From Candidatus Gordonibacter avicola (GTDB lineage Bacteria; Actinomycetota; Coriobacteriia; Coriobacteriales; Eggerthellaceae): DNA of 64,000 nucleotides. Under the pieces are notes generated by a model. The model was not told the DNA's origin and searched no databases. It saw nothing but the letters and a program-made list of their open reading frames with translations. This document shows, piece by piece, positions 5,433 through 50,783 of the stretch (positions within the stretch are counted from its first letter, which is position 1; the number at the start of each line of letters is the position of its first letter). The position numbers were made by a program, and so were the translations under genes. The stretch is taken from NCBI GenBank assembly GCA_019113915.1, contig DXGM01000003.1:62001-126000 (forward strand), read 5' to 3'.

Positions 5433-6389
5433 ATGCGCGTCGTGTTCATGGGCACGCCGGAGTTCGCGGCCACCATTCTGGAAGACTTGTCTCAACAGTA
5501 CGAAGTGGTGGCCGTCTACACGCGCCCCGATGCCGTACGCGGCCGCGGCAAGCAGCTGGAGCCTTCGCCGGTGAAGCGTACGGCCGAGCGCCTGGGTCTT
5601 CCTGTGCTCACGCCCCGCACGCTGCGCACCGAAAAGGCGCAGGCGGAACTGGCCGCATTTGAACCCGAGGTCATTTGCGTTGCCGCATACGGGGCTATTC
5701 TGCCCAAGGCGGTGTTGGATATTCCGAGCCATGGCTGCCTGAACGTGCACGCGTCGCTGCTGCCGCGCTGGCGCGGGGCTGCACCGGTGGAGCGCGCGTT
5801 GTTGGCGGGCGACGAGGAAACAGGCGTGTGCGTCATGCGCATGGAAGAAGGCCTGGACACGGGTGCTTTCTGCGTGTGTCGCACGGCGCGCATCGACGCT
5901 AAAACCGCCGATGAACTCACCGATGAATTGGCGAACCTTGGCTCGCATGCGCTGCTCACGGCCCTGGTGCATGTGCAAAACGACGCGGCCGAATGGACTG
6001 ACCAGGACGAGTCACTAGTTACCTATGCCTCGAAGATTGAAAAGGGTGAGCTTGACCCGCTCCCAACCGACACGGCGGCCACGGCCGTGCGCAAGGTGCG
6101 TGCCTCGAGCGCAGCGCATCCGGCGCGCGCGATTCTTGCGGGGCGGCCGGTCACCCTCTGCGCGCTGGTTGAACCCGATGACGCACGGGGGCGCGAACTT
6201 GCTTCTGGATTGCCAGCAGGAGAGATTCGCTTCGCGGGCAAGCGGTTGTTCCTGGGCTTTGCCGATGGAGCGGCTGAGGTGTTTTCGGTGAAGCCCGACG
6301 GCAAGCAGGCCATGGACGCGAAGGCGTTTGCCGCCGGCGTGCAGGGTATCAAGGCGGGCGGCATGTGCTGGGAGGCTGCGCATGAGTAA
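5433..6389 (+). CDS. fmt: Methionyl-tRNA formyltransferase
   Basis: A 318-residue enzyme transferring a formyl group from 10-formyl-tetrahydrofolate to Met-tRNAi for initiation. It begins with the expected VVFMGTPEFAA. It carries the catalytic triad of the formyltransferase fold: N104 and H106 in LNVHASLLPRWRGAAP, and D142 in EEGLDTG. The C-terminal OB-like tRNA-binding domain covers roughly residues 205-315. The ATG at 5433 starts two bases after the def stop, and its end overlaps rsmB by 8 bases, so the three genes are tightly coupled. Family length and motifs are complete. Confidence 0.95.
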   Translation: MRVVFMGTPEFAATILEDLSQQYEVVAVYTRPDAVRGRGKQLEPSPVKRTAERLGLPVLTPRTLRTEKAQAELAAFEPEVICVAAYGAILPKAVLDIPSHGCLNVHASLLPRWRGAAPVERALLAGDEETGVCVMRMEEGLDTGAFCVCRTARIDAKTADELTDELANLGSHALLTALVHVQNDAAEWTDQDESLVTYASKIEKGELDPLPTDTAATAVRKVRASSAAHPARAILAGRPVTLCALVEPDDARGRELASGLPAGEIRFAGKRLFLGFADGAAEVFSVKPDGKQAMDAKAFAAGVQGIKAGGMCWEAAHE

Positions 6390-7818
6390 CGAGCAGCGCC
6401 GCGCATCCAAATCACGTGTGGGTCGCGTGTCAAGCGATGCCACTCAAAGCACAGCGCCGCGCACCTCGTCCAAGGCGAGCCCGGCGCGTCGTGCCGCGTT
6501 GGACGTATGCCGCGCCGTGCGCGAGCGCGATGCCTACGCACAAGACCTCATTGCCTCACATATTGATTCCTCGCGCTTGAGTCCGGAAGATCGCGCGTTC
6601 GCAACGCTTTTGGTGCGTGGTGTGACGAGCGCTCAGGGCACGCTCGATGAAGTGATTGACCGCGCCCTGCGTTCGCCGAATGACGTACAGGATGACGTGC
6701 GTGATGCGTTGCGCATTGCCGCCTACGAGATCATGTTTTTGGACAAAAGCCCGCATGCGGCCGTTGACCAGGGGGTTGAACTGGTGCGTGCCGTGCAGCC
6801 TCGCGCCGCCGGCCTCGGCAACGCGGTGCTCCGCAAAGTGACGGCGATGAAGGAGGACTTTCCGTTTGGCGATCCGGCGCGTGATGTGGCGGCACTTGCG
6901 CGTGCGAATGCGTTTCCGCTCTGGCTCACCAAGCGCCTCATTGCCGATTTAGGGGCACCCGCGGCGGTGAACTTCATGCGCGCTTCGAACGAGCCGGCAC
7001 CGGTGCATATTGCGGTAAACGAGATTCGCGCGAGCGCCGATGAAGTGCTCTCTGCGTTTGCTGAGGCGGGCTCGCCACTTGAGCCGGACGGCTCGGCAGG
7101 AATTGAGGTGGCGGGGTGCTACCGCGTGCACGACCCCCGCGTACTGCAGCACAAGCGCGTGAAGCAGCTGTTTACACAGGGCAAAGTGCTCGTGTCGGAT
7201 GCCACCTCCCAGCTCATTGCCGCTTCCGTATTGCCTGATCACATGCCCGCCTCTCTGTTGGAAATTGGTGCCGGCCGCGGCACCAAAACCGTACTGCTGC
7301 AAAGCGGGGCCCTGCGCGCCTACGGCAGCCAGGTGGAACTTTCCACGCTGGACAACCATGCATTTAAGACAAAGCTTCTGCGCGAACGCGCCGCAACGTA
7401 CGGCGTGCACGTGGCCGAGACCTTAACGGGTGATGCCACCGCGCTTGATGACGTGGTGGGAACGGGCCTGTTTGATGCGGTGTTCATCGACGCGCCGTGC
7501 TCGGGTTTGGGCACGCTGCGCCGCCATCCGGAAATCCGCTGGCGTTTGACCGAACAGCGTGTGGGCGAGCTGGCGGCGCTCGAACTGGCGCTTCTGCGCT
7601 CAGCCGCCGGGCATGTGGTGCGCGGCGGTCAGTTGGCGTACGCCACCTGTTCGGTCACGCATGCTGAGAACAACGGCGTGGTGAAGCGCTTTCTGGAAAG
7701 CCCTGAGGGCGCCGCCTTCGAGCTGGCCCCCCTGGCGGGTCGCTCGTGCATCGCCCCGCCGCTTGTGCCCGGTTCCCCCGACGCTCACTTTGCGGTGCGT
7801 TTCATACGCACGCGATAG
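6382..7818 (+). CDS. rsmB: 16S rRNA (cytosine-967-C5)-methyltransferase RsmB
   Basis: A 478-residue two-domain protein. The N-terminal part after a basic, low-complexity tail (about residues 35-165) is a NusB-like RNA-binding domain. The C-terminal part is a SAM methyltransferase with EIGAGRGTKT near residue 293, C373 in DAPCSGLG, and C423 in YATCSV, the two cysteines of the RsmB/NOL1 mechanism. I start it at the ATG at 6382 (MSNEQRRAS), inside the end of fmt, rather than at the longer frame from 6328. It methylates helix 31 of 16S rRNA in characterised homologues. It is the last gene of the def operon, closed by a terminator at 7825. Confidence 0.92.
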   Translation: MSNEQRRASKSRVGRVSSDATQSTAPRTSSKASPARRAALDVCRAVRERDAYAQDLIASHIDSSRLSPEDRAFATLLVRGVTSAQGTLDEVIDRALRSPNDVQDDVRDALRIAAYEIMFLDKSPHAAVDQGVELVRAVQPRAAGLGNAVLRKVTAMKEDFPFGDPARDVAALARANAFPLWLTKRLIADLGAPAAVNFMRASNEPAPVHIAVNEIRASADEVLSAFAEAGSPLEPDGSAGIEVAGCYRVHDPRVLQHKRVKQLFTQGKVLVSDATSQLIAASVLPDHMPASLLEIGAGRGTKTVLLQSGALRAYGSQVELSTLDNHAFKTKLLRERAATYGVHVAETLTGDATALDDVVGTGLFDAVFIDAPCSGLGTLRRHPEIRWRLTEQRVGELAALELALLRSAAGHVVRGGQLAYATCSVTHAENNGVVKRFLESPEGAAFELAPLAGRSCIAPPLVPGSPDAHFAVRFIRTR

Positions 7819-39045: not shown

Positions 39046-40974
39046 TTATTTCATGTTCCTCACGTTCATGGCGCGCATGGCGTTCAGGATAGCGATGATG
39101 GCTACCCCCACGTCGGCGAACACGGCAAGCCACATATTCGCAATGCCGAAGGCGGCCAGCACCAGTACCAGCAGTTTTACGCCGAGGGCGAACACGATGT
39201 TTTGCCAGACGATGCTCATAGTGGTGCGCGCAATGCGGATGGCACGGGCGATGTTGGACGGCTTGTCGTCCATGAGCACCACGTCGGCCGCTTCGATGGC
39301 GGCGTCTGAGCCCATCGCGCCCATGGCGATGCCGATGTCGGCGCGCGTGAGTACCGGTGCGTCGTTGATGCCGTCGCCGACGAAGGCCAGTTTGCCTTTG
39401 CCGGTGCCGTGGGCATGCGTTTCGTCAAGCAGCTTCTCCACTTCGGCCACCTTGTCCTGGGGGAGCAGCTGCGCGCGGTATTCGTCAATGCCGAGTTCTT
39501 GCGCTACGGCTGCCGCCACGTCGGCGCGGTCGCCGGTAAGCATGACGGTTTTGCGCACACCGGCCGCTCGCAGCGCGGCTATAGCTTCAGCGGCATCCGG
39601 TTTCACCACGTCGGCAATCACAATGTGGCCCACGTACTCGCCGTCAAGCGACACGTGCAGGATGGTGCCCGTCAGTTCGCAGTCGTGGAAGTCGGCGCCG
39701 CATGCGCGCATGAGCTTGTCGTTGCCCACATACACCGTGCGCTCGTCCACGCGCGCCCGCACACCGTGGCCGCTCTGTTCTTCGACCTCCGCGATACGCT
39801 CGCGGTCGATGGGCCCCGCATACGCCGCCTTCACGGAAAGCGCGATGGGATGGTCGGAATATGCCTCGGCGTGCGCGGCGATGGAGAGCAGCCGGTCGGG
39901 GTCGATGCCCGTCTCCGGGTGCACGGCCACTACGTTGAACGAGCCGTCGGTGAGCGTACCCGTTTTGTCGAACACGACGGTTTCCGCATGCGAAAGCGTT
40001 TCGAGGTAGTTGCTGCCCTTCACCAGGATGCCGAGGCGCGACGCCCCGCCAATGCCGCCAAAGAACGACAGCGGCACGCTGATGACCAGGGCACACGGGC
40101 ACGACACCACGAGGAACACCAGGCCGCGCTGCACCCAGTCCGACCAGCTTTCGCCGAAGAAGAGCGGCGGAATAACGGCCAGCAGCACCGCAATGCCCGT
40201 GACCGCCGGTGTGTAGTAGCGCGCGAAGCGGGTGATGAAGTTCTCGGTGCGTGCCTTCTTCTCGGCGGCGTTTTCTACCAGCTCAAGGATGCGGCTTACG
40301 GTGGACTCGCCGAAGGGCTTGGTCACGCGCACGGTAATGAGACCGGTAAGGTTCACGCACCCGGAGATGATCTCGTCGCCCTCGCGCACCTCGCGCGGCA
40401 CCGATTCACCGGTGAGCGCCGCGGTGTCAAGCTGGCTTGCTCCGCTGACTACCACGCCGTCGAGCGGCACCCGTTCACCCGCCTTCACGACAATCTCATC
40501 ACCGACGGCCACCTCGTAGGGGTCAACCTGCACGAGTTCGCCGTCGCGCTCCACGTTGGCGAAGTCGGGCGCGATGTCCATCATCTCGGCGATTGACGCG
40601 CGGCTCTTGCCCACGGCGTAGCTTTGGAACAGTTCGCCCACCTGGTAGAACAGCATGACCGCCGCACCCTCGGCCATGTGCGGGTCGCTGTCGGGGAAGA
40701 GCACGAGCGCGAACGCGCCGATGGTGGCCACGCTCATGAGGAAGTTCTCGTCGAACACCTGGCCGTGGCCGATGTTCTTCGCCGCACGCAGCAATACGTC
40801 GTAGCCGGCGATAAGGTAAGGAATGAGGAACAACGCAAACTCCGCCCACAGCGCCGCCGTCTCGCTGCCAAGCCACGTGGAGAGCGGCATAAGCTCCGCA
40901 ATCACGTAAGCCACAACGAAGAGCGCAATGGCAATAAGAATGCGATTCCTCGTACGTCTTTGTTTTCTATTCAT
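39046..40974 (-). CDS. Heavy-metal P1B-type ATPase (Zn/Cd/Pb type) without N-terminal metal-binding domain
   Basis: A 642-residue P-type ATPase from the ATG at 40974 (MNRKQRRTRNRIL), with AAGGAT upstream. It has the transmembrane metal site SCPCALV, phosphorylation motif DKTGTLTDG, HP motif SDHPIAL, TGES in the actuator domain (LTGESVPRE) and GDGINDAPVL. The CPC followed by ISVPLSFFGGIGGASRLGILVKG matches the Zn/Cd/Pb (ZntA/CadA) subgroup rather than the copper subgroup. It has no HMA domain of its own; a separate 72-residue HMA protein is encoded upstream. The CadC/SmtB-like repressor gene lies at 41481, so this is probably the efflux pump it controls. Confidence 0.9.
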   Translation of the reverse strand: MNRKQRRTRNRILIAIALFVVAYVIAELMPLSTWLGSETAALWAEFALFLIPYLIAGYDVLLRAAKNIGHGQVFDENFLMSVATIGAFALVLFPDSDPHMAEGAAVMLFYQVGELFQSYAVGKSRASIAEMMDIAPDFANVERDGELVQVDPYEVAVGDEIVVKAGERVPLDGVVVSGASQLDTAALTGESVPREVREGDEIISGCVNLTGLITVRVTKPFGESTVSRILELVENAAEKKARTENFITRFARYYTPAVTGIAVLLAVIPPLFFGESWSDWVQRGLVFLVVSCPCALVISVPLSFFGGIGGASRLGILVKGSNYLETLSHAETVVFDKTGTLTDGSFNVVAVHPETGIDPDRLLSIAAHAEAYSDHPIALSVKAAYAGPIDRERIAEVEEQSGHGVRARVDERTVYVGNDKLMRACGADFHDCELTGTILHVSLDGEYVGHIVIADVVKPDAAEAIAALRAAGVRKTVMLTGDRADVAAAVAQELGIDEYRAQLLPQDKVAEVEKLLDETHAHGTGKGKLAFVGDGINDAPVLTRADIGIAMGAMGSDAAIEAADVVLMDDKPSNIARAIRIARTTMSIVWQNIVFALGVKLLVLVLAAFGIANMWLAVFADVGVAIIAILNAMRAMNVRNMK

Positions 40975-41014
40975 GGGATTGATCCTTGAGGTTCGATTAA
41001 GTTTTAAGTGGTTT

Positions 41015-41160
41015 GTCATCCTGAGCGAGCGAAGCGAGTCGAAGGATCCCGAGCGGTGCCAACCGAAAGACTCCCAGCTATCGCCCGCTCGGGATCCTTC
41101 CCCTGCGGGACTAGCTTCGCGTCGCGACTACGGCGCTACGTGCCTCCGCTCAGGATGACA
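41015..41160. repeat. Interspersed repeat family 1, copy B (paired inverted units)
   Basis: GTCATCCTGAGCGAGCGAAG at the left and CGCTCAGGATGAC at the right face each other, each with its GGATCC-containing inner block (AAGGATCCCGAGCGG and GCTCGGGATCCTT). It lies between the ATPase and the HMA gene. Confidence 0.85.
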
Positions 41161-44019: not shown

Positions 44020-44685
44020 TTATGCTTCAGGTGCGCTTGTAAGAGGCAGGCCTTCGCGGTTGAGAAGTGGGGCGTAATTTCCGGTGAGCCAGAGAGTGGC
44101 TTCCTTCGTGTCAAGCGCGAGGGGCATGCGGTCATGGACCGGTGCCACTGTTTCATTCGGCTGTGTGGTTACCAGCGAGAAGCACCCCTGATCGTGAATG
44201 CCTGCCAGCAGAAGCGGCGCGCCATCGGGACGTTCGAAGGCGTATTGGCGCTTCACGGGCTTGCCGGTGCGCGCGCTTGGGACGGTTTCGGTGGCGTGTG
44301 ACTCGTAAAACGCCCACGCTGGCACAAGGCAGCGCCGCTTCGCGAGCGATTCCGCCCACATGCACGTCGGGTCATCAAGCGCCGTTTCAATGCGCGTGTT
44401 AAACACCGGCCCCTTCTTCCAAGGAACCTCAAACCCCCACACCATATCCGCGACCGCCAGCTGAGCGCCCACGCCAGTTGGCGCAATAAGCGGCACAACT
44501 GCCTGGGGAAACGCTTCGCGCTGCACCCCCGGCGCATCCGACACTGGCGCGCTTAAAAAAGGACGCCACGCCTCCAGCGGGTCAAGCACACTCAACTCGC
44601 CCGCATGTGCCGCCACATCGCGCGCAACTTCAGCAGCAATACGTGCCACCTCCGCCCGCTCAACCACCACAAACCGTCGACACAC
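44020..44685 (-). CDS. SRAP (HMCES/YedK-type) abasic-site DNA-protein crosslinking protein
   Basis: A 221-residue SOS-response-associated peptidase-family protein. The mature N-terminal cysteine must follow the start codon. That holds if translation begins at the GTG at 44685 (MCRRFVVVE), which has GGAGG 10 bases upstream; the longer frame from 44715 would bury the cysteine and is rejected. Further catalytic residues fit: the Glu in FYESHATE and the His in PVHDRMPLAL. In characterised members Cys2 forms a thiazolidine with abasic sites in single-stranded DNA. The usual CGRF is CRRF here, a small deviation. Isolated gene. Confidence 0.87.
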   Translation of the reverse strand: MCRRFVVVERAEVARIAAEVARDVAAHAGELSVLDPLEAWRPFLSAPVSDAPGVQREAFPQAVVPLIAPTGVGAQLAVADMVWGFEVPWKKGPVFNTRIETALDDPTCMWAESLAKRRCLVPAWAFYESHATETVPSARTGKPVKRQYAFERPDGAPLLLAGIHDQGCFSLVTTQPNETVAPVHDRMPLALDTKEATLWLTGNYAPLLNREGLPLTSAPEA

Positions 44686-44778
44686 GGTGTTTATACCTCC
44701 GCTCTTAGCGCGCACTCAATCGTGCGGGGCATTGTATCACGGCCTTCAACCGTCCGCGGGTAGTCCAGTGATTGACGC

Positions 44779-45185: not shown

Positions 45186-45304
45186 GTCATCCTGAGCGAG
45201 CAAAGCGAGTCGAAGGATCCCGTGCGGCGGTAGCGGGGAGGCTTTCAGTTAACACCGCACGAGATCCTTCGACTTCGGCGCTGCGCGCCTTCGCTCAGGA
45301 TGAC
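45186..45304. repeat. Interspersed repeat family 1, copy D (paired inverted units)
   Basis: GTCATCCTGAGCGAGCAAAG at the left and CGCTCAGGATGAC at the right, with AAGGATCCCGTGCGG and GCACGAGATCCTT blocks inside. It lies between csoR and copA and would form a long hairpin in the operon mRNA. Confidence 0.85.
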
Positions 45305-45362
45305 AAAAGGGTGCGGCAATAGCGAATGGGTAGTTCAGGCTTCAACTAGAGAGGAATTCGTC

Positions 45363-47963
45363 GTGAAGGTGACGTTTGATATTGCGGGTATGACCTGTGC
45401 GGCGTGCTCGGCGCGGGTGGAGAAGGCCACGCGCGCGGTGGACGGCGTGCAGGACGTGGCCGTGAACCTGCTTAAGAATAGTATGGAAGTGGAACTCGAT
45501 GACCTCAACACGGCAACCGCCATCGAGGCAGCCGTGGAAAAGGCGGGCTATGGGGCCACCCAGCGCCCCGAGCGGGGTGCTGCGCCCAGTACTCGCGCCG
45601 CCGAGGCGCGCCCAGTGGCCGACGCTGCGGCCGAAGCCAAGCGCGTACGCAACCGCCTCATCATATCCATCATATTCACGATGCCGCTGTTTTACCTGTC
45701 CATGGGCCACATGTTCGGCTGGCCGCTGCCGGGCTTTCTCACGGGCGACTCAAACATCATGCCGTTCGCCTTTACGCAGTTTTTGCTGCTGCTGCCCGTG
45801 ATCTTTGTGAACTTCAAGTTCTTCCGCGTGGGTTTCAAAACGCTCGCGCACGGCGCGCCGAACATGGACTCGCTCATCGCCCTCGGTTCGGCCGCATCCA
45901 CCATCTACGGCGTGTACGCGCTCTACAAAATTGGGTACGCGCTCGGCGCGAGTGATGCAATGGGCGCGCATGTGGCGGTGATGGATCTCTACTTCGAGTC
46001 CGCTGCCATGATTCTCACGCTCATTACACTGGGGAAATACTTCGAGGCGCGCGCGAAGGGCAAGACCACCGACGTCATCGCGAAGCTCATGGATTTGGCG
46101 CCGAAGGAGGCCACGCGCTTGGTGGACGGCCGCGAAGAGCGCATTCCCGCTGATGACGTGCGTGCGGGAGATGTGTTGGTGGTTCGCGCGGGCGAAGGGG
46201 TGCCGGTAGATGGTACGGTGCTTGAAGGCACCGGCACGCTTGATGAGTCGGTGATCACGGGAGAAAGCGTGCCGGTGGACAAGGGTCCGGGCGATACGGT
46301 GACGGGCGCTACCGTGAATCGTACGGGATGGTTCACCATGCGCGCCGACCGCGTGGGCGACGACACCACGCTCGCGGGCATTATTCGCCTGGTTGACGAA
46401 GCCACGTCCACCAAGGCTCCCATCGAGAAGCTGGCCGACAAGATTTCGGGTGTGTTCGTGCCTATCGTTATTGGCATTGCGTTGGTCACCTTTGCGGTGT
46501 GGCTGCTTGGTGGCGCAACGCTGGAAGTGGCGCTCTCGCACGCCGTGAGTGTGCTCGTTATCTCGTGTCCCTGCGCGTTGGGCCTGGCCACGCCCACGGC
46601 TATTATGGTGGGTACGGGCCGCGGCGCACAAAACGGCATCCTCGTGAAGTCGGCCGAGGCACTGGAAACGGCGCACGGCGTGAAAACGGTCGTGCTCGAC
46701 AAGACGGGCACGGTCACGGAGGGCACCCCGAGCGTCACCGACGTACGCGTAGCCCCCGGCGTGGACGAAGCGCGCCTGCTTGAGGTGGCCACATCCATCG
46801 AAGGCCGCTCCGAGCATCCGCTCGCACGCGCCGTCTGCGACTACGCCCGCGCACACCAGGCGTACCCCCTCATCGTGGAGGACTTCAAGCAGATTCCCGG
46901 CGAAGGGGTGGAAGCGCTCGTGGATGATATTCCCACGTGTGCGGGTAACCTGCGCATGATGGAGGCGCGTGGCATTGCGCCAGGTGAGTTGGCTACTGTT
47001 GCGCAAACCTTCGCTGACGAGGGCAAAACCCCGCTCTTCTTCGCACAGAACGGCGAGGTGCTTGGCGTGCTGGCGGTGGCCGATACCGTGAAGCCCTCAA
47101 GCGCCGCCGCACTGGCCGAACTCAAGGCCATGGGCATTCACACCATCATGCTCACCGGCGACAATGAGCGCACCGCGGCCGCCATTCAGCGCGAAGTGGG
47201 TGCCGACGAGGTTATTGCGGGCGTGCTGCCCGACGGCAAAGAGCGCGAAATTCGCCGCCTGTCCGAAAGCGGCGCCACGGCCATGGTGGGCGACGGCATT
47301 AACGATGCGCCCGCGCTTGCCCGTGCGGATGTGGGCATTGCCATTGGGGCGGGTACCGACATCGCCATCGAAAGCGCCGATGTGGTGCTCATGCGCAGTG
47401 ACCTGATGGATGTGCCTGCCGCCATCCAGCTGTCGCGTGCCACCATGCGCACCATCAAGCAAAACCTTTTCTGGGCGCTCATCTATAACGCCGTGTGCAT
47501 TCCCGTGGCCGCTGGCGTGCTGTCAATGTGGGGCGTGAACCTGAACCCCATGATTGCCGCTGCCGCCATGAGTTTGAGTTCGGTCTGCGTTGTCACGAAC
47601 GCCCTGCGCCTGCGCGGCTGGCGCCCCCGCTTCACGGCAGTCGCACCGCTCCCGCCGTTGGAAGCGTCACTTCCTGAGGGAACACCGGGCACCACGCCCG
47701 AGAACCAGACACAAACCGAGGACGCAGAAGCGCCCGCACGAAAGGAGATCACCATGGAGAAGACGCTGCACGTAGAAGGCATGATGTGCCAGCACTGCGT
47801 GGCTCACGTGAAAAAGGCCCTGGAAGGCATCGACGGAGTTGAAGAGGCCGTGGTTGATCTCGATGCCGGTACCGCCACCGCCCACCTGACTCACGATGTG
47901 CCCGCTGATACGCTGTCCGCCGCCGTCGTTGACGCCGGCTACGAAGTGACCAGCATCGACTAG
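45363..47963 (+). CDS. copA: Copper-translocating P1B-type ATPase with C-terminal CopZ domain
   Basis: An 866-residue copper efflux pump. The N-terminal HMA domain has C12/C15 (GMTCAACSA). The core has ISCPCALGLATPTAIMVG (CPC in the copper-type context), DKTGTVTEG, HP motif SEHPLAR and GDGINDAPAL. The last helix pair ends near residue 735. After an acidic Thr/Pro/Glu linker, a second HMA domain (residues 798-866) has C809/C812 (GMMCQHC). A C-terminal HMA domain is unusual for CopA and reads like a fused CopZ chaperone. An internal ribosome site before Met798 could also make it separately (see 47754). The start is the GTG at 45363 with GAGAGGA upstream. It is probably under CsoR control. Confidence 0.92.
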   Translation: MKVTFDIAGMTCAACSARVEKATRAVDGVQDVAVNLLKNSMEVELDDLNTATAIEAAVEKAGYGATQRPERGAAPSTRAAEARPVADAAAEAKRVRNRLIISIIFTMPLFYLSMGHMFGWPLPGFLTGDSNIMPFAFTQFLLLLPVIFVNFKFFRVGFKTLAHGAPNMDSLIALGSAASTIYGVYALYKIGYALGASDAMGAHVAVMDLYFESAAMILTLITLGKYFEARAKGKTTDVIAKLMDLAPKEATRLVDGREERIPADDVRAGDVLVVRAGEGVPVDGTVLEGTGTLDESVITGESVPVDKGPGDTVTGATVNRTGWFTMRADRVGDDTTLAGIIRLVDEATSTKAPIEKLADKISGVFVPIVIGIALVTFAVWLLGGATLEVALSHAVSVLVISCPCALGLATPTAIMVGTGRGAQNGILVKSAEALETAHGVKTVVLDKTGTVTEGTPSVTDVRVAPGVDEARLLEVATSIEGRSEHPLARAVCDYARAHQAYPLIVEDFKQIPGEGVEALVDDIPTCAGNLRMMEARGIAPGELATVAQTFADEGKTPLFFAQNGEVLGVLAVADTVKPSSAAALAELKAMGIHTIMLTGDNERTAAAIQREVGADEVIAGVLPDGKEREIRRLSESGATAMVGDGINDAPALARADVGIAIGAGTDIAIESADVVLMRSDLMDVPAAIQLSRATMRTIKQNLFWALIYNAVCIPVAAGVLSMWGVNLNPMIAAAAMSLSSVCVVTNALRLRGWRPRFTAVAPLPPLEASLPEGTPGTTPENQTQTEDAEAPARKEITMEKTLHVEGMMCQHCVAHVKKALEGIDGVEEAVVDLDAGTATAHLTHDVPADTLSAAVVDAGYEVTSID
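47754..47963 (+). CDS. Candidate internal start: 69-residue CopZ-like copper chaperone
   Basis: ATG at 47754, in frame within the 3' end of copA, is preceded by AAAGGAG with 6 bases of spacing, a near-perfect Shine-Dalgarno within coding sequence. Translation from here yields MEKTLHVEGMMCQHCVAHV..., a complete 69-residue HMA domain of CopZ size with the CQHC motif. The family reading is secure; use of the internal start is inference. A comparable two-product solution is known for E. coli copA, where frameshifting yields a small chaperone. Confidence 0.5.
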   Translation: MEKTLHVEGMMCQHCVAHVKKALEGIDGVEEAVVDLDAGTATAHLTHDVPADTLSAAVVDAGYEVTSID

Positions 47964-48058: not shown

Positions 48059-49186
48059 CTAGCACCCGGCGATAATCTCGCGCAGGGCTGCAACCAGCTT
48101 CTCGTTGTCCTCGCGCGTGCGCACGGCCACGCAGAAGTAGCGGCCATCGGAAAGCCCCGGCGTTCCTTCCAGCTTGCGAATAAGGAACCCGGCCAGCTGC
48201 AAACGGTTCGCCAGCTCTTCGGTGTTTGCCACGTTCAAATCTAAGTCCGGGCCGTTCTCGAACGTACACATGACGTAGTTCGCCTCGGCGGGGAAGATGT
48301 CGATACCCGGCACCAGGCTAAGCATGCACTGCATCCAGGGAATTTCGTACTCCAAAAACTCGCGCGTGCGTTCCAAATGCTCGCGCTCAGCCAGGGCTAA
48401 CTCGCCCAGTACCTCGGCAAACATGGGCACGCAGGAACTGTCGTAGAAGCGCGCGATCTGCGCGATGGTGTCAGGGTGCGCCACGCAGTAGCTAATGGGA
48501 ATGCCCGGCATGGCGTACGGTTCGCAGAACGAGCGCACCACCACCAGGTTGCGATGTTCGCGTACAAGCGGCACCATGCTTTCGCCGCCGAGCGTCAGCT
48601 CAATGGAGCGTTCGTCCACCACCACCCACGTGCACGCTTCCAAATAGGAAAGTAACGTGGGCAGGGGCAGAAGGCGGCTCGTGGGATACCCCGGGTTCGC
48701 CAACACGGCGGCATCGAACACAATACCGTGGCGAGCAGCCGCCGCGGGGTCGGGCATCACAAAGCCAGCGGGCCCAGAAATTTCCACCACGCGATGACCA
48801 GCGTTGCCGGCCGCAAGTGCGTACTCAACCGGGCCCGGCACCGTCACGCCCACCGTGCAGGGCTGATAGGTTTGCGCAACGGCACGCACCATGTCGCCCA
48901 CAGTTGAGCCAACCAAGAACGACTCCACCGGCATGCCGTGCTGACGCGCCAGCACACTGCGCAGCGCGTGGGCCTCGCGGTCAGGCGGGTAGTTCAACTC
49001 GCCGGCCGTGAGGGCATCTTGCATGGCGCGAATGAACGAGGGCGGCGTCCCCAGCGGATTCGCCGTTCCCGAGAAATCAATCCAGTTCATTTCGGTACGG
49101 AGTTCATAGGGAGGGGAGAGCAGCTGTTCAGGCAGTGCAGTGACTGCGGCACGCACGGCAGAGCGCGCCTCGCTTCCGTTCGGCAT
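48059..49186 (-). CDS. PLP-aminotransferase-fold protein lacking the catalytic lysine
   Basis: A 375-residue class I/II aminotransferase-fold protein resembling HisC/CobD (threonine-phosphate decarboxylase) along its length, for example FSGTANPLGTPPSFIRAM (normally FS-N-NP-G-P). NPGYPTS stands where NPNNPTG is expected, and VVVDER retains D191. However, where the Schiff-base lysine should sit, the sequence is SFCEPYAMPGIPISYC, giving E222 instead of K, and the phosphate-binding Arg of the GLRxGY motif is replaced. It should not form a normal PLP aldimine. It may be a non-catalytic paralogue or use another chemistry. The ATG at 49186 has AAAGGAG upstream. Not a truncated gene. Confidence 0.75.
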   Translation of the reverse strand: MPNGSEARSAVRAAVTALPEQLLSPPYELRTEMNWIDFSGTANPLGTPPSFIRAMQDALTAGELNYPPDREAHALRSVLARQHGMPVESFLVGSTVGDMVRAVAQTYQPCTVGVTVPGPVEYALAAGNAGHRVVEISGPAGFVMPDPAAAARHGIVFDAAVLANPGYPTSRLLPLPTLLSYLEACTWVVVDERSIELTLGGESMVPLVREHRNLVVVRSFCEPYAMPGIPISYCVAHPDTIAQIARFYDSSCVPMFAEVLGELALAEREHLERTREFLEYEIPWMQCMLSLVPGIDIFPAEANYVMCTFENGPDLDLNVANTEELANRLQLAGFLIRKLEGTPGLSDGRYFCVAVRTREDNEKLVAALREIIAGC

Positions 49187-49394
49187 CTTTGGTGTCTCTC
49201 CTTTCCCGTTCGAACCCGTGTGTGCATGAGGGCCAAAGGGGAATCTGAAGCGTACGTTTCAGCTGGTGGCAGATTCAGAAGCGGCCGTGCATGCCCATGG
49301 CATCCAGCCGCGCGCGGCACGTCGGATGCAAGGGAATGATTATCCTAGCACAACTTGGCAACCGGCGCGCGTCGCATGGTAGACTAATCCTTAT

Positions 49395-50783
49395 ATGAAG
49401 CCAGAATTCCCGCAAAGCGCAGCGCCCCTCCACGGCGCCAGCACCCCCGCACGAGCGGCGGGAACTGCCACCACGCCCGCTAGCGTAGAAAACACGGGGG
49501 CGGAACGCGATGCCTTACCGCTGGAGCCGTGGGAAGGCCCCGCCATTTTGCTGGTAGACCTGGATGCGTTCTTCGCGTCGGTTGAGCAGCTGGACCACCC
49601 CGCGTGGCGCGGCAAACCGGTCGTGGTGGGCGGCGACGCGGACAAGCACGGCGTGGTGTCCACGGCCTCGTATGAGGCGCGTGTCTTCGGCGTGCGCAGC
49701 GCCATGCCGGCCTCCACCGCCAAGCGCCTGTGTCCCCAGGCCATTTGGACGCACGGCCACTTCGACCGCTATCGCGAAATGTCGAACAAGATTATGGACA
49801 TCCTGCGCGCTGAGACGCCGCACGTGCAGCAGGTGAGCATTGACGAGGCGTTTCTCGATGTGACGCCCACCACGGTGAATCGCGAACACCCCGTGGCGGT
49901 GGCGCGCCGCATTCAGGTGCGCGTGGAAGAGTTGGGCGTGACGTGCTCCATTGGTGTGGGCACGTCGAAAACCATCGCAAAAATTGCCTCTGATATGGAT
50001 AAACCGCGTGGGTTGACCGTAGTGTATCCCGGCGGCGAGCGCGACTTTTTGGCGCCGTTGCCCGTGCGCACCATGAGCGGCATCGGCGCGGCGGCCGAGG
50101 AAAAACTGCGTACCCGCGGCATTCGCACGCTGGGGCAGCTGGCCGACGCCGACCTAAATATGCTCGTGCGCCTGTTCGGTAAGAACGGCCGCGTGATGCA
50201 CCTGCGCGCAAACGGCGGCGACGATGCGCCGGTTGAGCAAGACGACATCGTAAAGTCGGTGTCGAACGAAATGACGTTTGCCGTCGATCTCACCGAACGC
50301 ACCGACATGGAAGCTGCCATTGCCACGATGGCGGCGAAGGTGGGGCGGCGCCTGCGGCGCAAAGGGCTGCGCGGCCACACGCTCAGTTTGCGCGTGAAGT
50401 TCAACGACCTCAGCGTGCGTTCGGTGCAGCGCCAGCTGCCGAACCCAAGCGACGACGAGCTGGCGTACACGCCGCTGCTCTATCGCATGGTGGATGAAAT
50501 ATGGCGCCCAGGTATGCCGCTGCGCCTCATAGGTGTGGGCATGAGCGGCTTTGACGAGGTAGCGGTGGTGCAGGAAAGCCTTTTCGACGTGGCCGAAGCC
50601 GCGCCCACCGAAGACGACGTGGAGCCCGTGATAGCTGACGCGCGCAAGCGCCGCGGTCTCATTGAAGCCACCGACCTTGTGAAAAACCGCTTTGGCGAAA
50701 GCGCCGTTCGCTTCGGCCACGAACTCCGCAACGACGAAAACACCACCGGCTCCGCCGCCAAAAACCCCGCAGACTATAAATAG
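49395..50783 (+). CDS. dinB: DNA polymerase IV (Y-family, DinB)
   Basis: A 462-residue translesion polymerase. A 45-residue variable N-terminus is followed by the palm motif LLVDLDAFFASVEQ, VVSTASYEARVFGVRSAMP, SIDEAFLDVT (second catalytic acidic pair) and SIGVGTSKTIAKIASDMDKP, then the thumb (GIGAAAEEKLRTRGIRTLGQL) and little finger. The ATG at 49395 has no ribosome site. A TAGACT box ends about 9 bases upstream, so the mRNA may be leaderless. The tail after about residue 390 is non-conserved; a clamp-binding peptide could be ESLFDV. It mediates error-prone bypass. Confidence 0.93.
   Translation: MKPEFPQSAAPLHGASTPARAAGTATTPASVENTGAERDALPLEPWEGPAILLVDLDAFFASVEQLDHPAWRGKPVVVGGDADKHGVVSTASYEARVFGVRSAMPASTAKRLCPQAIWTHGHFDRYREMSNKIMDILRAETPHVQQVSIDEAFLDVTPTTVNREHPVAVARRIQVRVEELGVTCSIGVGTSKTIAKIASDMDKPRGLTVVYPGGERDFLAPLPVRTMSGIGAAAEEKLRTRGIRTLGQLADADLNMLVRLFGKNGRVMHLRANGGDDAPVEQDDIVKSVSNEMTFAVDLTERTDMEAAIATMAAKVGRRLRRKGLRGHTLSLRVKFNDLSVRSVQRQLPNPSDDELAYTPLLYRMVDEIWRPGMPLRLIGVGMSGFDEVAVVQESLFDVAEAAPTEDDVEPVIADARKRRGLIEATDLVKNRFGESAVRFGHELRNDENTTGSAAKNPADYK

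Follow-up and report, generated by a model that had tools for sequence, protein, structure and literature searches.

Few enzyme families have been studied as well as the PLP enzymes, and CobD (L-threonine-O-3-phosphate decarboxylase) acts in cobamide synthesis, where CbiB uses its product. All catalytically active aminotransferases have the Schiff-base lysine, which is absolutely conserved among them, and the remaining residues compared below are listed as PLP or substrate contacts (PMC9309667). Only two precedents for fold-type-I proteins without this lysine were found in the literature. SPT1/LCB1, a eukaryotic protein of the AOS family, is kept by selection and forms a known obligate heterodimer; SPT1 lacks the lysine, and serine palmitoyltransferase requires both subunits (PMC6148460). 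ColD is a fold-type-I dehydratase that works with a histidine replacing the lysine (PMC8987622); ColD and the E1 3-dehydratases remain active by means of bound PMP and a catalytic His that is conserved. YwlG, considered as a bacterial PLP-linked precedent, was set aside because it is described with a different fold. Our literature search returned no paper joining Eggerthella, aminotransferase and pseudoenzyme. Among the published examples found, the lysine-less protein is either a eukaryotic partner subunit or a dehydratase that uses His, whereas the protein described here, P0001, belongs to a free-standing bacterial clade.

P0001 is encoded in a 64,000-nucleotide stretch of Candidatus Gordonibacter avicola DNA (the window). 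A first-pass annotation of this DNA had placed the gene correctly, and its strand is minus: the open reading frame runs from 49186 to 48059, with 375 codons, an ATG start and a stop at 48061-48059. The good start it had noted is an ATG preceded by an AAAGGAG ribosome site, and the two stretches that it quoted, SFCEPYAMPGIPISYC and NPGYPTS (the latter in place of the canonical NPNNPTG), are both present exactly as given. The complete 375-residue aminotransferase fold that it had proposed agrees with a Pfam Aminotran_1_2 match (37.2 bits, above the gathering score of 19.7) and with an AF2 model built from an alignment of the protein's own orthologs, which predicts a confident and complete fold (pLDDT 89.9, pTM 0.88). 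Salmonella CobD is the closest described protein in both sequence and fold. It is the best solved relative in a phmmer search (1lc5, E value of 2.6e-31) and the best structural match of the model (1lc7, Foldseek E value of 7.9e-32; Z score of 39.1, root mean square deviation of 2.6 Å over 344 residues, 29% identity), and the two proteins are of equal length and have the same domain order. A confident model (pLDDT 88.7), with an unchanged order of elements, was likewise obtained for the ortholog that diverges most (37-38% identity).

Features of the P0001 locus, with positions in the window
Feature	Position	Strand	Remarks
Pseudo-aminotransferase CDS (P0001, 375 aa)	48059..49186	minus	CobD/HisC-like fold type I, without Schiff-base lysine
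Glu222 codon	48521..48523	minus	aligned with CobD/HisC Schiff-base Lys; variable, no Lys in 63/63 orthologs
Pro230 codon	48497..48499	minus	aligned with PLP-phosphate Arg; P or H across family
Tyr167 codon (NPGYPTS)	48686..48688	minus	aligned with PLP O3' Asn; aromatic in 61/63
Cys352 codon	48131..48133	minus	aligned with CobD R337, substrate-carboxylate Arg; C/S/L across family
dinB (DNA polymerase IV)	49395..50783	plus	divergent neighbor; occurs with or without pseudoenzyme; yardstick and synteny anchor
Putative extended -10 of P0001 gene (TGC-TAGGAT)	49342..49347	minus	conserved in 14 genomes
Putative -10 of dinB (TAGACT)	49380..49385	plus	mostly conserved in 14 genomes

The likeness to CobD does not extend to the active site. 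CobD has the Lys, both Arg, the Asn and the Tyr contacts, whereas P0001 keeps the Asp that contacts the pyridine nitrogen (N1) alone. In the phmmer alignment, E222 falls on the lysine of SLTKFYAIPGLRLGY in CobD and P230 on the PLP-phosphate arginine of PGLR, just as the first-pass annotation had claimed for the lysine and for the arginine that follows it. Residue roles were mapped onto P0001 by sequence alignment, and 61 clade orthologs were compared with 31 canonical CobD/HisC-like relatives (other column counts given here use n = 63). The Schiff-base Lys is present in 0/61 clade members versus 30/31 canonical relatives, and the O3' Asn in 0/61 versus 29/31. The PLP-phosphate Arg, the substrate-carboxylate Arg, the stacking aromatic, the interface Tyr and the helix Gly are each found in none of the 61 clade members but in all 31 relatives; most orthologs have a Tyr or Phe one residue before the interface Tyr position. 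The second ring Tyr/Phe persists in 9/61 (31/31 in the relatives), and the N1 Asp, D191, is the sole contact fully retained (61/61). The extent of loss described earlier, namely the Lys, the Arg and the NPNNPTG motif, was therefore right as far as it went but understated, since the substrate Arg, interface Tyr, helix Gly and stacking aromatic are gone as well.

Glu222 was ruled out as a catalytic residue by its variable column. The glutamate is not conserved across the orthologs (Glu in 32/63, with Val, Thr, Ala, His, Asp, Ser and others in the rest), and the entropy of position 222, in the 92nd percentile of P0001 columns, is among the highest. Because residue 222 varies freely, the suggestion that E222 is a functional replacement or the basis of a lyase with Glu-based chemistry is refuted. 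A relocated lysine was also searched for, and Lys occurs in at most 37 of the 63 sequences at any alignment column; neither Glu222 nor a relocated Lys can therefore be the catalytic group. Nor is P0001 a single mutant, since all 63 orthologs, at 38-91% identity, lack Lys at this position.

The lysine that marks catalytically active aminotransferases (PMC9309667) is thus missing from the clade, although its loss alone is no proof of lost catalysis, because lysine-less fold-type-I enzymes such as the His-using ColD exist. An enzyme with new chemistry, either PLP independent or using PMP without a lysine, would be consistent with this precedent (PMC8987622) and with the invariance of D191 and E192 in the clade. 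We consider it very improbable, however, given that no catalytic side chain is conserved at position 222 (the His on which ColD relies occurs there in 3/63) and that the PLP-phosphate, ring and substrate contacts are all lost. P0001 is like ColD in its fold and in the replacement of the catalytic Lys but differs from it in its variable residue 222 and lost cofactor contacts; it is like SPT1/LCB1 as a fold-type-I protein without the PLP lysine that is kept by selection but unlike it in family. Neither model seems to fit P0001. Judged from these residues, normal PLP chemistry is almost certainly impossible for P0001, which likely binds no PLP.

Orthologs were found in 63 of the 138 Eggerthellaceae genomes searched (E values of 2.4e-90 or better); the next paralogs follow only after a wide gap (8.6e-33 or worse). 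A wider profile search of 396 genomes of the class gave 473 versus 166 bits with no intermediates, with all strong matches within the Eggerthellaceae, and in the same genomes a search with P0001 as the query gave no members outside this family at an E value of 1e-34. The named relatives of the window are Gordonibacter, Eggerthella, Paraeggerthella, Enteroscipio, Rubneribacter, Raoultibacter, Hugonella and Senegalimassilia. The clade is monophyletic (support 100/100), and the gene is single copy at one chromosomal locus. On the ileS tree, its presence and absence require at least nine changes at one syntenic locus, which in noncarriers is mostly recognizable with the gene cleanly missing. With one origin and one syntenic place, an ancestral gene with repeated loss is the simplest account, and the gene is probably an accessory one that was ancestral in the Eggerthellaceae and was cleanly lost many times. 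Genome G087 (L119, about 6318-6508) has cleanly and recently lost it between copA and dinB, whereas its close sister G089 (L138) retains it. Such repeated clean loss provides natural strain pairs for finding the role of the protein.

Pairwise NG86 dN/dS values of the P0001 orthologs were about 0.01-0.20, compared to 0.01-0.38 for dinB of the same pairs (one pair saturated in dS), and were lower for the pseudoenzyme in 14 of 18 pairs. The catalytic residues have been lost clade-wide and the rest of the protein is under purifying selection, as expected of a pseudoenzyme under selection. The first-pass annotation had held that the gene did not look like random decay and might encode a pseudoenzyme, and the family-wide loss of Lys, the low dN/dS and the intact predicted fold strongly support both ideas. 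A recently decayed gene or pseudogene, or else an error of assembly or sequencing, for which the missing residues are the sole argument, is refuted by the 63 open frames without an internal stop (E values below 1e-89), the low dN/dS and the conserved promoter blocks, and we give this reading practically no weight.

A CobD or HisC identity was considered and rejected. The best NCBIfam match of P0001 is CobD (TIGR01140), at 162.1 bits well below the equivalog cut-off of 290.55. CbiB is absent in 13 of 17 carriers tested, the window's genome included, which together with the lost contact residues argues against P0001 being CobD; two genomes, G095 and G124, have a further CobD-like gene, with the Lys, beside CbiB. 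HisC (histidinol-phosphate aminotransferase) is of the same fold and branch, but P0001 reaches 104 bits against TIGR01141, far under the cut-off of 276.55, and a true HisC (337 bits) is encoded elsewhere in the same genome. In Gordonibacter, Eggerthella and related bacteria that are common in the human gut, the pseudoenzyme can easily be misannotated as CobD, as HisC or simply as an aminotransferase. As a separate observation, a CobD-like paralog in another Eggerthellaceae genome (L152; G119:C40:1500-2750) has Ala at the Schiff-base Lys position (SFTASYAMAGLR), with NPNNPTG and both Arg intact, and either lost the Lys independently, as a single event, or reflects an assembly error.

P0001 could instead be a lysine-less subunit that forms a heterodimer with an active enzyme of fold type I, for example HisC, in the way that SPT1/LCB1 pairs with SPT2/LCB2. 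This precedent, and HisC scoring above the cut-off in 11 of 12 carriers tested, speak for such a partnership. HisC as an obligate partner is contradicted, however, by G046 (99% complete), which carries the gene and has no HisC above the cut-off; HisC-like proteins also occur in genomes without the gene, and SPT1/SPT2 come from another family. A different aminotransferase might still serve as the partner, but we regard this arrangement as improbable.

Our main reading, to which we assign a probability of about 0.7, is that P0001 represents a family-wide, selected and noncatalytic pseudoenzyme of the CobD/HisC lineage that acts by binding. Sixteen positions other than 222 have gained constraint in the clade. 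Within the clade, W35, D37, V112, H131, R171, Y181, W187, P283, W284, Q286, L291 and F351 show little or no variation but are free in relatives, and I282, within I282-P283-W284-x-Q286, replaces a canonical Arg. In fold type I, the starts of the large-domain strands face away from the cofactor. V112, H131 and W187 lie at such starts in the secondary structure and, from this topology, would face away from it too.

These newly fixed residues bear on the alternative that the pocket, once emptied and rebuilt, accommodates some other small molecule, making P0001 a metabolite sensor (one of the roles suggested in the first-pass annotation) or a ligand carrier. Former PLP positions are fairly fixed (P230 in 86%, Y167 in 76% plus F in 16%, S170 in 94%, C352 in 84% and D191 in 100%), and the N-terminal PYxxR arm and the N43-P44 region are still conserved. 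Against this stand the pocket positions as a whole, which apart from structural ones lie near the middle of the entropy scale, the clade-gained invariant residues, which fall mostly outside the old pocket in the sequence, and the lack of a DNA-binding or output domain in P0001. This alternative seems unlikely to us, though less so than those above; the old pocket may retain a role, since D191, P230, Y167 and C352 are fairly conserved. Because constraint has shifted away from the pocket, our guess is that P0001 binds proteins, as a scaffold or regulator, and is not a sensor of small molecules.

On the pseudoenzyme reading, a CobD/HisC-lineage aminotransferase fold lost its whole PLP and substrate apparatus once, in the clade ancestor, and strong purifying selection has maintained it since then in some members of the Eggerthellaceae. 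It would neither bind PLP productively nor carry out PLP chemistry and would most likely function as a scaffold or regulator, in homodimeric or hetero-oligomeric form, binding through newly fixed residues rather than the old pocket. Candidate binding residues are W35/D37; H131, Y181 and W187, together with V112, in the large domain; and I282-P283-W284-x-Q286 and F351 in the small domain. Such a protein would be a clean case of enzyme-to-nonenzyme conversion, with virtually all cofactor and substrate contacts gone and constraint mostly above that on the adjacent DNA polymerase IV. More tentatively, P0001 and its orthologs might be a class of bacterial regulators or metabolite sensors that is new and specific to gut Eggerthellaceae, in which the entire PLP site of an aminotransferase was dismantled once and the scaffold repurposed around a newly fixed binding site.

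In almost every case the gene and dinB are divergently oriented, with ileS-lspA-rluD/DegV on one side of the locus and a glycosyltransferase gene, glf and pta-ackA on the other; csoR-copA is inserted in Gordonibacter, Senegalimassilia and some others. The divergent promoter region contains two conserved -10-like blocks in opposite orientation. The divergence and the conservation of the extended -10-like blocks in 14 genomes support the earlier proposal that the gene has its own transcription unit. No specific functional link emerged from this neighborhood (dinB, DegV, ileS-lspA, glycosyltransferase, pta-ackA and sometimes csoR-copA). A link to dinB was rejected because dinB occurs in 21/21 noncarriers searched, and one to copper resistance because csoR-copA is adjacent in some genera only and persists where the gene is absent. 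P0001 gave no PADLOC match to anti-phage defense.

A SRAP (SOS response-associated peptidase) gene is located about 5 kb from dinB (44020-44715, minus strand), and a second heavy-metal-type P-ATPase of 657 amino acids is encoded near csoR-copA (39046-41019, minus strand). The copper-type P-ATPase (45300-47963, plus strand) has a C-terminal HMA domain, just 5' of which lies an in-frame internal ATG (47754) after AAGGAG-N6. This site is conserved in 12 related-genome loci (11 with AAGGAG and 1 with CAGGAG), which suggests that the gene may also produce a separate CopZ-like chaperone from the internal start.
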